Of a stretch of DNA of 52,551 nt, positions 15,722-44,134 are shown piece after piece; position 1 is the first letter of the stretch, and the number at the start of each line of letters is the position of its first letter. The stretch comes from Caldilineaceae bacterium SB0664_bin_27 (GTDB lineage: Bacteria > Chloroflexota > Anaerolineae > Caldilineales > Caldilineaceae), in assembly GCA_009838625.1 (NCBI GenBank), contig VXRG01000065.1:1-52551 (forward strand), given 5' to 3'. The position numbers were made by a program, and so were the translations under genes. The notes under the pieces were generated by a model. That model worked only from the letters and a program-made list of their open reading frames with translations, searched no databases and had not been told where the DNA came from.

Positions 15722-16180
<459 letters not shown>

Positions 16181-16181
16181 A

Positions 16182-16209
16182 GGACGGCTTCACAACGGCA
16201 GCGCCGTCC
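16182..16209 (+). terminator. Hairpin after RNase P RNA
   Basis: GGACGGC (16,182-16,188) and GCCGTCC (16,203-16,209) form a 7-bp perfect stem just after the RNase P 3' end. No U-tract follows (GAAAA), so it may be a processing or weak termination signal. Confidence 0.35.
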
Positions 16210-16275
16210 GAAAATGTCAGATGGCTTGCGAGGCTGCTCTGCTCAATCGGCGCCGGACAGCATGCCGGCATGGAA

Positions 16276-16360
<85 letters not shown>

Positions 16361-16375
16361 TGGAAATCAGCGTCC

Positions 16376-16449
<74 letters not shown>

Positions 16450-16498
16450 CGACGTCCTGCCGGATTCACAGAAACAGAAGTTGCCTTAACATTCCATC

Positions 16499-16573
<75 letters not shown>

Positions 16574-16659
16574 TAGAGGACCGGCCCTTAAGGGGGTGGA
16601 GCCGTTGTCGGCTGGCGAACAGGTGCTGCGGCTCAGTCGCCTTACGCGTCGGTCCTTTT

Positions 16660-16732
16660 GCCGAGGTAGCTCAGTTGGTAGAGCAATGGACTGAAAATCC
16701 ATGTGTCCCCAGTTCAAGTCTGGGCCTCGGCA
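16660..16732 (+). tRNA. tRNA-Phe (GAA)
   Basis: GCCGAGG/CCTCGGC acceptor, anticodon loop CTGAAAA (GAA), T-loop GTTCAAGTC, discriminator A. Confidence 0.97.
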
Positions 16733-16843
16733 CCTTGGAGAATTCTGAACTCCTGGCCCGTTGTTTGGCAGCGTTGCGATCTGTACTGGGGCGGCCAGCG
16801 AACGGCCGGGAAAGAGTTTCTCAGGTCCCGATTCGGCTGTAGA

Positions 16844-16916
<73 letters not shown>

Positions 16917-16991
16917 TTGTTCGGGGCGGGCCATCCCCGTCTCGGAGAGAATGTAGTTGGGAAGTTGTGTTTCTGTTGGTCAACCAAATAT

Positions 16992-17064
16992 GGCGCCTAT
17001 AGCTCAAAGGCAGAGCGTCTGATTGTGGATCAGAAGGTTGCGGGTTCGAGCCCCGCTAGGCGCC
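16992..17064 (+). tRNA. tRNA-His (GUG)
   Basis: Begins with the encoded extra G-1 opposite C73; stem GCGCCTA/TAGGCGC, anticodon loop TTGTGGA (GTG). It is the last tRNA of the cluster. The low-G+C accessory island starts immediately downstream, which makes its 3' end a candidate integration site; I did not spot a second copy of the 3' end in the window. Confidence 0.95.
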
Positions 17065-17225
17065 CCTAGCGTTCGGTTGAGTCTTTGCTCTTAGTCTGAG
17101 AGACAGGGGTACTCAGCTGACGTGATTCCTACCCAAAAACGTACGAGGATCCTACAAACGGCCCAACCTCCTATGTCTGGCGGTTTTCTCGCGCTTACAG
17201 TTGGTGAAGGGATCGTGGTTGACTC

Positions 17226-40169: not shown

Positions 40170-40500
40170 AAACATCTTTCCATTCTCTCAGTTGAGGCGT
40201 TAATGGAACAGGGGGTCCCCCCAAAAACGTGCCAAATTGTGCCAAATTGTGCCATGTCGAGCCTAACTCCTTCTCTGCTCTCTTAGTTGAGCAGTTGAAG
40301 AGAAAAAGGGGGTCCCCCCCAAATACGTGCCAAATTGTGCCAAATTGTGCCATTTCGCGCCCAAATCCTTCTCCGCTTTCACTTTTGAGTATATGAATGG
40401 AACCGGAGTGGCCCCCAAAACCGTGCCGCAAAAGTGCCAACTTGTGCCAAGTCGCGCTTTAGAGCTTCTCCGCTTTCACTGTTGAGTAACTGAATCGCAA
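40170..40500. repeat. ~98-bp-period tandem repeat
   Basis: About 3.4 degenerate units. The core CGTGCCAAATTGTGCCAAAT occurs at 40,228 and 40,326, with a diverged form at 40,422 (spacings 98 and 96). Other unit parts repeat too: GGGGGTCCCCCC (40,211 and about 40,309), TTCTCCGCTTTCAC (about 40,369 and 40,467) and GTTGAG. Within each unit TGCCAAATTG is itself doubled. Confidence 0.8.
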
Positions 40501-40880
40501 GGCTCGCTGACGCTCGTCAGAAGAGCAGTTTGCGGGACCAAACAGCCCGTCCGCGCAAGGCGCCGGCAGTATCGCCGGTAAAGTCCGATACGCTTCATCT
40601 GTTCTTCGAGGCATTTCGCGTCGCGTTCCGCGTCGAAGAGTGTTGCTCTGCCTCGCCGCACGGTCCGCCGAAGTCTGAAATCGCATTACGTAGCCGCCAA
40701 ACCTTTAGATGCTTCTGCGCTGACCGTTGCAGGCACTGCGGCGGTCAGTGGGTTTTGGGCTTAGAAGACATGCGGGAGGGCAGGCTGGGCCAAGGCCCTC
40801 CTAGGGACCCGAACTCGCCGGTCGCGCCAGACCTGGACTCGCCTGCAGGAACAATAGCCGCTACGGCGAATCAAGCGAGT

Positions 40881-40972: not shown

Positions 40973-42517
40973 ATGCGTTTCTCAGTCCTGCTGGTCTCCT
41001 GCTACGAACTCGGCCATCAGCCTCTCAGCCTGGCCTGGCCGCTGGCCGCCCTCCGGGAAGCCACCCTTGACGCCGCAACTGCCGACCTGGCCGTCGAGGA
41101 GTTCCCAACCGGCAGAGCGGCCGGCGCCGACCTGATCGCCATTGCCGTACCCATGCACACTGCGCTGCGCATCGGCGTGGACGCGGCGCGGAAGGCGCGC
41201 GCAGCGAATCCTGACGCCCACCTCTGCTTCTTCGGCCTCTACGCCTGGCTCAACCGCCACTATCTGCTGCAACTTGATGGAAGCAAGGGGCCGGTCGCCG
41301 ATTCGGTTGTCGCCGGTGAAGCGGAGCCAGTCCTGGTCGCTCTGGCAAACGCCCTGCACGCAAGCATGCCGGCAGCAGATGTCCCCGGTCTTACCACCCT
41401 CGACCATGAGGCATCACCTCATCTGGGGCGGCACTCTCTGCCGCTTCCGGATCGAACATCATTGCCCTCCCTGGACAACTATGCTCATTACGTTCCAGGT
41501 TCGTCTTCAGACGCCGAGGGGATGTCAACAGGCAACGGTGAACGGGTCGAAGATCCTGTAGCCTACCCGGCCGGCTATACTGAGGCCAGCCGCGGCTGTC
41601 TGCACACCTGCCGCCACTGTCCGGTCGTGCCAGTTTACAATGGCCGCTTTTTCGTCGTACCCGTCGAAACCGTCATCGCCGACATCGCCCAGCAGGTCGA
41701 ATACGGCGCCCAGCATATAACTTTCGGTGACCCTGATTTTCTCAATGGTCCCGGCCACGCCCGCAAAGTAGCCAGAGCCCTCAATTCCGCCTTCCCCCAT
41801 GTCAGCTTCGATTTCACGGCAAAAGTGGAACACCTGCTCAAGCATCGCCGGCTCCTGCCGGAAATGGCGGAGCAAGGGGCATCATTCGTTGTCTCTGCCT
41901 TCGAGTCAACCAGCGAACATGTACTCTCCCGTCTCCAAAAAGGCCACACACGCCAACAGATGGAGGAGGCCCTGGCCGTCGTGGCGGAGGCAGGCCTCTC
42001 GATCCAACCGACCTGGATGCCCTTTACACCCTGGACCAGCCTGGACGACTATCTCTTCATGCTGCAATGGATCCGTGACCAGGGCCTGATACCGCAAGTA
42101 CCCGCTGTGCAGCTCTCGATTCGAATGTTGGTTCCTCCAGGGAGCGCCCTACTCTCTGAAGAAGACACTGAGGCATGGCAGGGAACGCTGGACGCGCCAA
42201 ATTTCACTTTCCAATGGCAGCACCCAGACCCGCGCATGGACGCACTCCAGCAACAGGTAGCGCGCATCGCGGAATTGGCGGGCCAGTATGAAGCGGAAGG
42301 TTCGTCCGGCGCCGGCGGAGGAAACCTGCCGGATCCAGTCGGAGACGCGGCCAGTCCGTACGCTGTATTCCATCGCATCCAATGTGCCGCTCACAATGTC
42401 GCCGGTCGCCCGCCCCCCGTTTTGCCGCCTCTCTCCTCTTACATTCCCCGGCCGCCGCGCCTGACCGAGCACTGGTTCTGCTGAGCGGAGCCCACCGCCG
42501 ACCAGTTGGCCGGCTGA
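40973..42517 (+). CDS. CUAEP-tail radical SAM selenoprotein (UGA at 42,482 read as selenocysteine)
   Basis: 514 aa including selenocysteine. A B12-binding-like N-terminal domain (about 1-130; FSVLLVSCYELGHQPLSLAW), then a radical SAM domain with Cys209, Cys213, Cys216 in RGCLHTCRHCP, FGDPDFLNG and STSEHVLSRLQKGHT. The conventional frame ends HWFC-TGA at 42,482-42,484, but the codons after it read AEPTADQLAG then TGA (42,515-42,517). WFC-U-AEP is the tail of the CUAEP/CCAEP radical SAM family, in which U and C alternate, so I extend the gene through the UGA. A hairpin lies 12 nt downstream. The reaction catalysed is unknown. Confidence 0.85.
42482..42484 (+). other. Selenocysteine UGA codon (residue 504)
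   Basis: TGA between TGC (Cys503) and GCG-GAG-CCC (Ala-Glu-Pro). The downstream frame is open for 10 codons and spells the conserved family tail. Family knowledge: related proteins have Cys at this position. Confidence 0.82.
42497..42514 (+). promoter_or_regulatory. Candidate bacterial SECIS hairpin
   Basis: GCCGACC-AGTT-GGCCGGC: four G:C pairs, one A-C mismatch and two more G:C pairs around the loop AGTT with G and U at the apex. The loop begins 20 nt after the UGA, within the spacing usual for SelB-recognised SECIS elements. It ends just before the stop codon. Confidence 0.6.
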
Positions 42518-42526
42518 AATGAACGC

Positions 42527-44134
42527 ATGAACGACCGTTCCACAGCTGAAGGCATCCTGTTTACCGATCAGTATCACCTGACGATGGCGCAGTTGTACTT
42601 TCGCCTTGGGATGCACGAACGGCAGGCCCAGTTCGACCACTTCTTTCGAAACTATCCGGACTACGGCGAGCACAGGGCCGGCTTCTGCGTCAATGCCGGG
42701 CTGGAGTGGCTGCTGGACTGGATGGAGGGTGCCCGTTTCGGCGAGCAGGAAATCTCGCTGTTGCGGGGCATGACCTCCCGTAGCGGAAGCCGGCTCTTTG
42801 ACGAAGATTTCCTGTCCTGGCTGGGCGAACACGGTGACTTCAGCGGCATCTCGATTCAGGCAGTTCCCGAAGGGCGGGTCGTACATGCCCACGTGCCTCT
42901 GACCGTTGTGAACGGCCCTCTTGCCCTGGCCCAGATCCTGGAAACACCGCTGCTGAACATTCTCAACTACCAGACGCTCATCGCTACCAAGGCAGCCCGC
43001 GTGCGTGAGAGCGCCGGCGACGCGCTGGTGCTCGAGTTTGGCGTGCGCCGCGCGCATGACCGGGGCGGCAATGCCGGTACGCGCGCGGCACTGATCGGCG
43101 GCGCCGACTTCTCCTCCAATGCCGGCGTCTCGCACATGCTGGGCTACCCCCCCAAAGGCACGCACGCCCACTCACTCGTACAGGCCTTCCTGGCGCAGGG
43201 CATGACCGAGCTCGACGCCTTTCAGGCGTACGCCGATATCTATCCGGACGAATGCCTGCTCCTCGTAGATACGATCGATACGCTGGAGAGCGGAGTGCCC
43301 AATGCGATTCGCGTTTTCGAAAGGCTGAGGCAAAAAGGGTATGCGCCCGTGGGCGTGCGCCTTGATTCAGGCGATCTCGCCCGGTTGAGTACGCGTGTTG
43401 CTCAAATGCTGGATGAAGCCGGCTTTCCCAACGCGTCGATTGTGCTTTCCAATGAACTGGATGAACTGAGGATACGGGACATCAGGTTGCAGATCGTTCG
43501 CGATGCGGCGGAGAGCGGGCAGGACGCCGATAGTATTGTCAACCGCCTCGTTTACGGTGTAGGGACCCGCCTGGTCACTTCGGAGGGGGACAGTTCATTG
43601 GGCGGCGTCTACAAGCTGGTCGGTCTGAAAGTAGACAAGACTTGGAAACCGGCGATAAAGGTCTCGGAGGATCCCGGCAAGACGGCGATCCCCGGCAACA
43701 AGCGGGTATGGCGCATCGTCGACGCGCGCGGCCTGGCTGCCGCCGACCTCTTGACGCTCAAAGAGGAGGACCCGGCAGGCGACTGGCAGAACGAATGCAG
43801 CCGGGACAGCCTTGCGGACCGGCCGGACGGCTTCAATTTACAACTGCTCAATCAAAGTCATATGTCCCAGCGCCGGTGCATGCCCTTCGCGAGCATCTCC
43901 CGGATTGAGCCGCTGCTGTCAGACGTGATGACGGCAGGGCGACTCGTGTACGAAAGGCCTTCTTTGGAGGAGATCCGGGCCTTTCGCCAGGCGGACGTGG
44001 CCGAACTTGATGAGGAGGTACGCAGGCTGATCGATCCGAAACCGTATCAGGTAGCAGTCAGCGGGAGCCTGTGGGCGCTGCAGGAGAAGCTTCTGCGCAG
44101 GCTGTCGACCGGCAGGGCTGGCCCGAATTCTTGA
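42527..44134 (+). CDS. pncB: Nicotinate phosphoribosyltransferase
   Basis: 535 aa; makes nicotinate mononucleotide from nicotinate and PRPP in NAD salvage. Recognised by the N-terminal [42 protein letters not shown] with the catalytic His region, [22 protein letters not shown] and [20 protein letters not shown]. The length matches long bacterial and eukaryote-like NAPRT. The start is 9 bp after the selenoprotein stop with no good ribosome binding site, implying coupling to readthrough of the UGA, an interesting dependence. Confidence 0.92.

Follow-up and report, generated by a model that had tools for sequence, protein, structure and literature searches.

Introduction

ArsL is a radical S-adenosylmethionine (SAM) protein of the biosynthesis of arsinothricin, an arsenic antibiotic (PMC8552651). 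NCBIfam also holds a family, NF040546, named for its C-terminal end as the CUAEP/CCAEP-tail radical SAM (seleno)protein. Here we analyze a gene from a 52,551-nucleotide (nt) stretch of DNA of Caldilineaceae bacterium SB0664_bin_27 (contig VXRG01000065.1), referred to below as the window, whose reading frame continues past an in-frame UGA into such a tail, with selenocysteine (Sec, U) predicted directly after a cysteine (Cys). The encoded protein is almost certainly a selenoprotein and, as judged from its resemblance to ArsL, likely carries out chemistry related to that of ArsL. An earlier note on this DNA had proposed the read-through and had suggested that the Cys-Sec pair could be a site of modification or redox chemistry.

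Results

Translation of the open reading frame (ORF) starting at position 40,973, with TGA read as U, ended in RLTEHWFC-U-AEPTADQLAG-stop, which reproduced the UGA at 42,482 and the ten-codon tail AEPTADQLAG of the earlier note and placed a second stop at 42,515-42,517 (Table 1). The protein gave a full-length match to NF040546 of 628.7 bits with the tail and 608.2 bits without it (curated cut-off 500), and of the C-terminal forms C-U-A-E-P and C-C-A-E-P that characterize the family it carried the former, as WFC-UGA-AEP. PF04055 was matched at 41.9 bits. No substantive difference from the family was observed; the inserts of the window copy near residues 175-195 and 445-460 are longer than those in more distant rows of the alignment. 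The finding is correct and is not new as a family, which is already in NCBIfam with its selenoprotein status included; what the present analysis adds is the relation to ArsL, the recurrent neighbors and the ATP-grasp genes beside ArsL-type genes. The expectation that annotation would lose the tail was borne out in Thermomicrobium roseum, where the annotated coding sequence ends at the aligned UGA despite the product name CUAEP/CCAEP-tail radical SAM protein, but the family is already named by its tail at NCBI and public records of relatives carry that name. A search of one literature collection found no report of the reaction catalyzed by the family and no mention of CUAEP or of the ArsL-type tail motif RCCLKC, with ccaep matching as letters only under unrelated titles; arsinothricin was never found together with a selenoprotein or with ATP-grasp. 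The family-identifier string nf0405 was absent from the main text of PMC13188914 and PMC12013277. A check for phage origin found no near match.

Table 1. Coordinates of the read-through gene, its C-terminal elements and the adjacent gene in the window.
Feature	Position	Strand	Basis or remark
Radical SAM protein up to in-frame UGA	40973..42481	+	503 codons, ATG start
CxxxCxxC motif, Cys209, Cys213, Cys216	41597..41620	+	invariant, 51-row alignment
Cys503, first residue of vicinal Cys-Sec pair	42479..42481	+	invariant, 51-row alignment
UGA, predicted Sec504	42482..42484	+	translation with TGA=U; TGA/TGY counts in relatives
Read-through tail AEPTADQLAG	42485..42514	+	translation with TGA=U; AEP in relatives
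Predicted bacterial selenocysteine insertion sequence (SECIS) hairpin	42497..42514	+	RNAfold, covariation in relatives
Terminating UGA	42515..42517	+	translation
Nicotinate phosphoribosyltransferase (NAPRT)	42527..44134	+	NF006695 556.2 bits, cut-off 469; starts 9 nt after second stop

Relatives were compared at the position aligned to the UGA. A survey of 46 genomes of the same order, all from the window's family (Caldilineaceae), placed the CUAEP family above its cut-off in 31, and W-F/Y-C-TGA-AEPT was present in all 30 of the same-order loci fetched, the window counted among them. From named genomes, the 80 top-ranking loci of 559 confirmed ones were taken; the similarity ranking used a query with the tail included, so that distant tail-less relatives may be under-represented. 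The aligned codon was TGA in 65 of these (64 by pattern, plus locus L062) and TGC or TGT in 15, which answered the earlier note's proposal to look for homologues with a Cys codon at this position; AEP continued in 79 of the 80, with SEP in L062. A quick tree of 79 of the loci (L062 left out), the window and three ArsL-type proteins, calculated with the tail excluded, covered 12 NCBI phylum names and requires at least four Sec/Cys changes, which fall in Bacteroidota/Ignavibacteriota, Nitrospirota, a Ktedonobacteria group and one Anaerolineales row. Co-occurrence with selB was tested for the genomes of 50 of the 80 loci (35 Sec, 15 Cys), and selB scored above cut-off in 31/35 Sec-form versus 5/15 Cys-form genomes (Fisher p 1.8e-4). 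Among the Sec genomes below cut-off, G081 had two pieces (207.6 and 120.6 bits) that between them cover most of the model, G064 had a piece starting at base 2 of its contig (191.5 bits), and the best matches in G072 and G091 reached only 168 and 81 bits. In Thermogemmatispora carboxidivorans (L111, 9369-9430) the Cys form (TGT) is found yet is accompanied by an 8-bp SECIS-like hairpin with an AGTTC loop; this genome has selB above cut-off, and the locus resembles one that recently changed from Sec to Cys and kept a fossil SECIS.

The source genome (5.35 Mb, 188 contigs, 96.7% complete) encodes tRNA-Sec at 67.6 bits (gathering cut-off 47), called tRNA-SeC with anticodon TCA by ARAGORN, together with SelB at 322.7 bits (cut-off 242), SelA at 546.6 bits with an in-frame neighboring piece included in the score (cut-off 268) and SelD at 328.7 bits (cut-off 125). 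The same cut-offs were passed in 5 of 14 control genomes for tRNA-Sec, 2 for selB, 1 for selA and 2 for selD. These results support the claim that the organism decodes Sec. Neither a genome lacking the Sec machinery nor homologues ending at the first Cys, the findings that the earlier note had named as speaking against its proposal, were encountered, the machinery being complete and none of the best 80 named relatives terminating there. The UGA of the window gene is predicted to be decoded as Sec in the cell. The selD gene of the same genome (contig 180, 25109-26104) contains an in-frame TGA of its own and is likely a second selenoprotein.

With respect to the hairpin, RNAfold of positions 42,482-42,526 returned a minimum free energy structure containing ((((.((....)).)))) at 42,497-42,514, with arms at 42,497-42,503 and 42,508-42,514 and the loop AGUU at 42,504-42,507; the 7-nt arms carry one A.C mismatch and therefore form 4+2 base pairs (bp). 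The 4+2-bp hairpin with AGTT loop described in the earlier note was found in this way, and the distance of 20 nt given there is that from the UGA to the start of the loop, not of the stem. Taken alone, the window hairpin did not exceed chance expectation (z -0.34, with 71 of 200 shuffles equally good) and did not stand out from synonymous recodings (z -0.06, with an equally long stem in 58% of 300 recodings), which counts against the Sec assignment; the beyond-chance evidence for the hairpin rests on relatives and not on the window copy. The tails compared numbered 108 (93 UGA, 15 Cys), with L072 (too short) and L062 (SEPT tail, missed by the pattern) dropped and L040, a duplicate of the window, omitted. 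Synonymous recoding gave a mean z of -1.30 for the 93 UGA rows (52 below -1) and of -0.19 for the 15 Cys rows (3 below -1), and most rows from the genus of the window, as well as the window itself, had z near or above -1. The best-stem search chose another register, with a CCAG loop, in the window and in most members of its genus; the covariation test used a fixed register. In this test the 93 UGA rows collapsed to 58 distinct arm pairs, in which on average 6.45 of 7 positions paired, compared with 5.06 (sd 0.11) after shuffling of the 3' arms, and none of 2000 shuffles reached the observed pairing, while the 15 Cys arm pairs had a mean of 3.67 versus 3.50 when shuffled (439 of 2000 as high). 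The arms covary in UGA and not in Cys relatives, and compensating changes therefore maintain pairing where the UGA is retained. In four loci assigned to Gemmatimonadota and Latescibacterota (L079, L084, L105, L122) a GGAAA apical loop replaces AGTT, giving the tail AEPTASRKGS; between the two phylum names the proteins differ very little, which suggests transfer or misbinning.

Comparison with described radical SAM enzymes gave 278.7 bits against the ArsL model NF040542, and the next family scored 31.6. The window protein is 33-36% identical to ArsL and has the same radical SAM motif, and C503 and U504 align with the CC of RCCLKC, the vicinal Cys-Cys of the C-terminal ArsL tail, in all three ArsL-type proteins aligned. 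It differs from ArsL in having Sec for Cys, a longer C-terminal region and no ars operon around the gene. Identity to AprD4 and the B12-type radical SAM enzymes OxsB, TsrM and MgmA was 15-20%, and we know of no Cys-Sec tail in these enzymes. The B12-binding domain PF02310, present in some listed relatives, was matched weakly in the window protein (16.6 bits, cut-off 32.1), and the predicted fold matches B12 enzymes and AprD4 alike.

Gene neighborhoods were counted in 79 named loci, L062 being left out. An ATP-grasp gene lay within 2 kb downstream in 24 of them (14 Sec, 10 Cys; 2 kb of sequence was available there in 66/79), on the same strand in Rokubacteria, Nitrospirota, Planctomycetota and Ignavibacteriota and on the opposite strand in the seven Chloroflexota cases; the one representative scanned carried an L-amino-acid-ligase C-terminal domain. 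ATP-grasp genes were likewise found nearby in three of the four ArsL-type loci fetched among 16 ArsL/RCCLKC hits listed, namely the plasmid loci of Priestia, Alicyclobacillus and Pantoea, and no such gene was found in the Pseudomonas amygdali locus. Iron or Fe-S supply genes of the YggX, IscA or NfuA type stood within about 400 nt on the same strand in 35/79 loci (26 upstream, 11 downstream, 2 both). Within 1.5 kb, upstream and downstream pooled, a DUF169 gene occurred in 6 loci, a formyltransferase-like gene in 12, and NAPRT in 13, the last in Caldilineaceae and near kin.

Arsenic genes were sought by comparing 20 proteins from three ArsL-type loci with ORFs of at least 80 amino acids in the 79 loci. 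Close ArsM-like and ArsR-like ORFs were found at L071 only, about 1.4-1.8 kb upstream of the radical SAM gene, with one more ArsM-like match in L059, 7 kb away; an NCBIfam scan of seven window neighbors revealed no ars genes. The idea that an arsenic operon would prove an arsenic substrate was rejected, the operon being essentially absent in the 79 loci. Elsewhere in the window, three head-to-tail copies of a 98-nt repeat (40211-40503; 79% and 63% identity to the first) lie upstream of the gene, and a class A RNase P RNA followed by six tRNA genes on the + strand occupies 15724-17066.

Discussion

The relation to ArsL suggests, tentatively, a radical transfer like that of ArsL, in which the Cys-Sec pair binds a soft acceptor. 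The C-terminal pair would keep the acceptor atom in the active site, with a metalloid such as arsenite as first candidate, and the 3-amino-3-carboxypropyl group of SAM would be moved by radical chemistry of the ArsL type. The ATP-grasp enzyme encoded near some of the genes may couple the amino-acid product to a second building block, and the adjacent iron and Fe-S supply genes may help keep the cluster loaded. We infer the ligand role, the radical chemistry and the ATP-grasp coupling; the ligand role, guessed from ArsL, appears at least as likely as the modification or redox role put forward in the earlier note.

Several observations weigh against this proposal. The score against NF040542 does not reach its curated cut-off of 450, and the RCCLKC tail itself is absent, WFCUAEP having only the CC position in common with it and lacking the last Cys because AEP stands in place of LKC after the pair. 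Tail residues 501-510 were modelled with modest confidence (mean predicted local distance difference test score, pLDDT, 61). In the window's own family the neighbor is NAPRT and not ATP-grasp, and the ATP-grasp enzymes of the CUAEP and ArsL-type groups, members of a large superfamily, share 22-27% identity in their best matches. The CUAEP loci have almost no arsenic genes beside them, and arsenic is therefore a candidate only. The predicted fold is closest to AprD4 and the B12-type radical SAM enzymes, which do several chemistries.

The protein could instead be a Sec-containing enzyme of this cobalamin-like class, generating a 5'-deoxyadenosyl radical or transferring a methyl group on an organic small molecule, with the Cys-Sec tail quenching or accepting the radical or, as the cycle closes, donating an electron and a proton. 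We regard this as possible though somewhat unlikely, since the sequence is far nearer to ArsL than to any such family. Less probable still is a pair acting as a redox switch or reductant, through a selenenylsulfide that protects or recharges the enzyme with no direct part in catalysis. Cys-Sec tails have redox roles in other selenoproteins such as thioredoxin reductase, and the iron-traffic and Fe-S genes beside the CUAEP loci would suit an oxidation-sensitive enzyme; however, the pair and the following A-E-P are invariant in 51 rows and ArsL has the aligned CC, which favors a substrate role over an accessory one. The view that translation simply stops at the UGA and that the similarity downstream is a relic agrees with a window hairpin no stronger than shuffles or recodings, but it is rejected as scarcely credible, given that tail and UGA are conserved across phyla, that a Cys codon can substitute, that covariation is confined to UGA forms, that selB co-occurs with the Sec form and that the genome has the complete machinery.

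The function of the ArsL-related Cys-Sec enzyme is testable, since both Sec and Cys forms occur in nature, the product of a related enzyme is known and certain partner genes recur. It is conceivable, if speculative and on balance unlikely, that the family forms a widespread Sec-dependent ArsL-like branch which makes a carbon-metalloid (or other soft-atom) bond at the Cys-Sec site and passes an amino-acid warhead to an ATP-grasp ligase, as part of a hidden organo-metalloid natural product pathway spanning phyla. Should the Cys-Sec pair bind the substrate as a ligand, a radical SAM enzyme would be using selenium catalytically and not for redox housekeeping alone.
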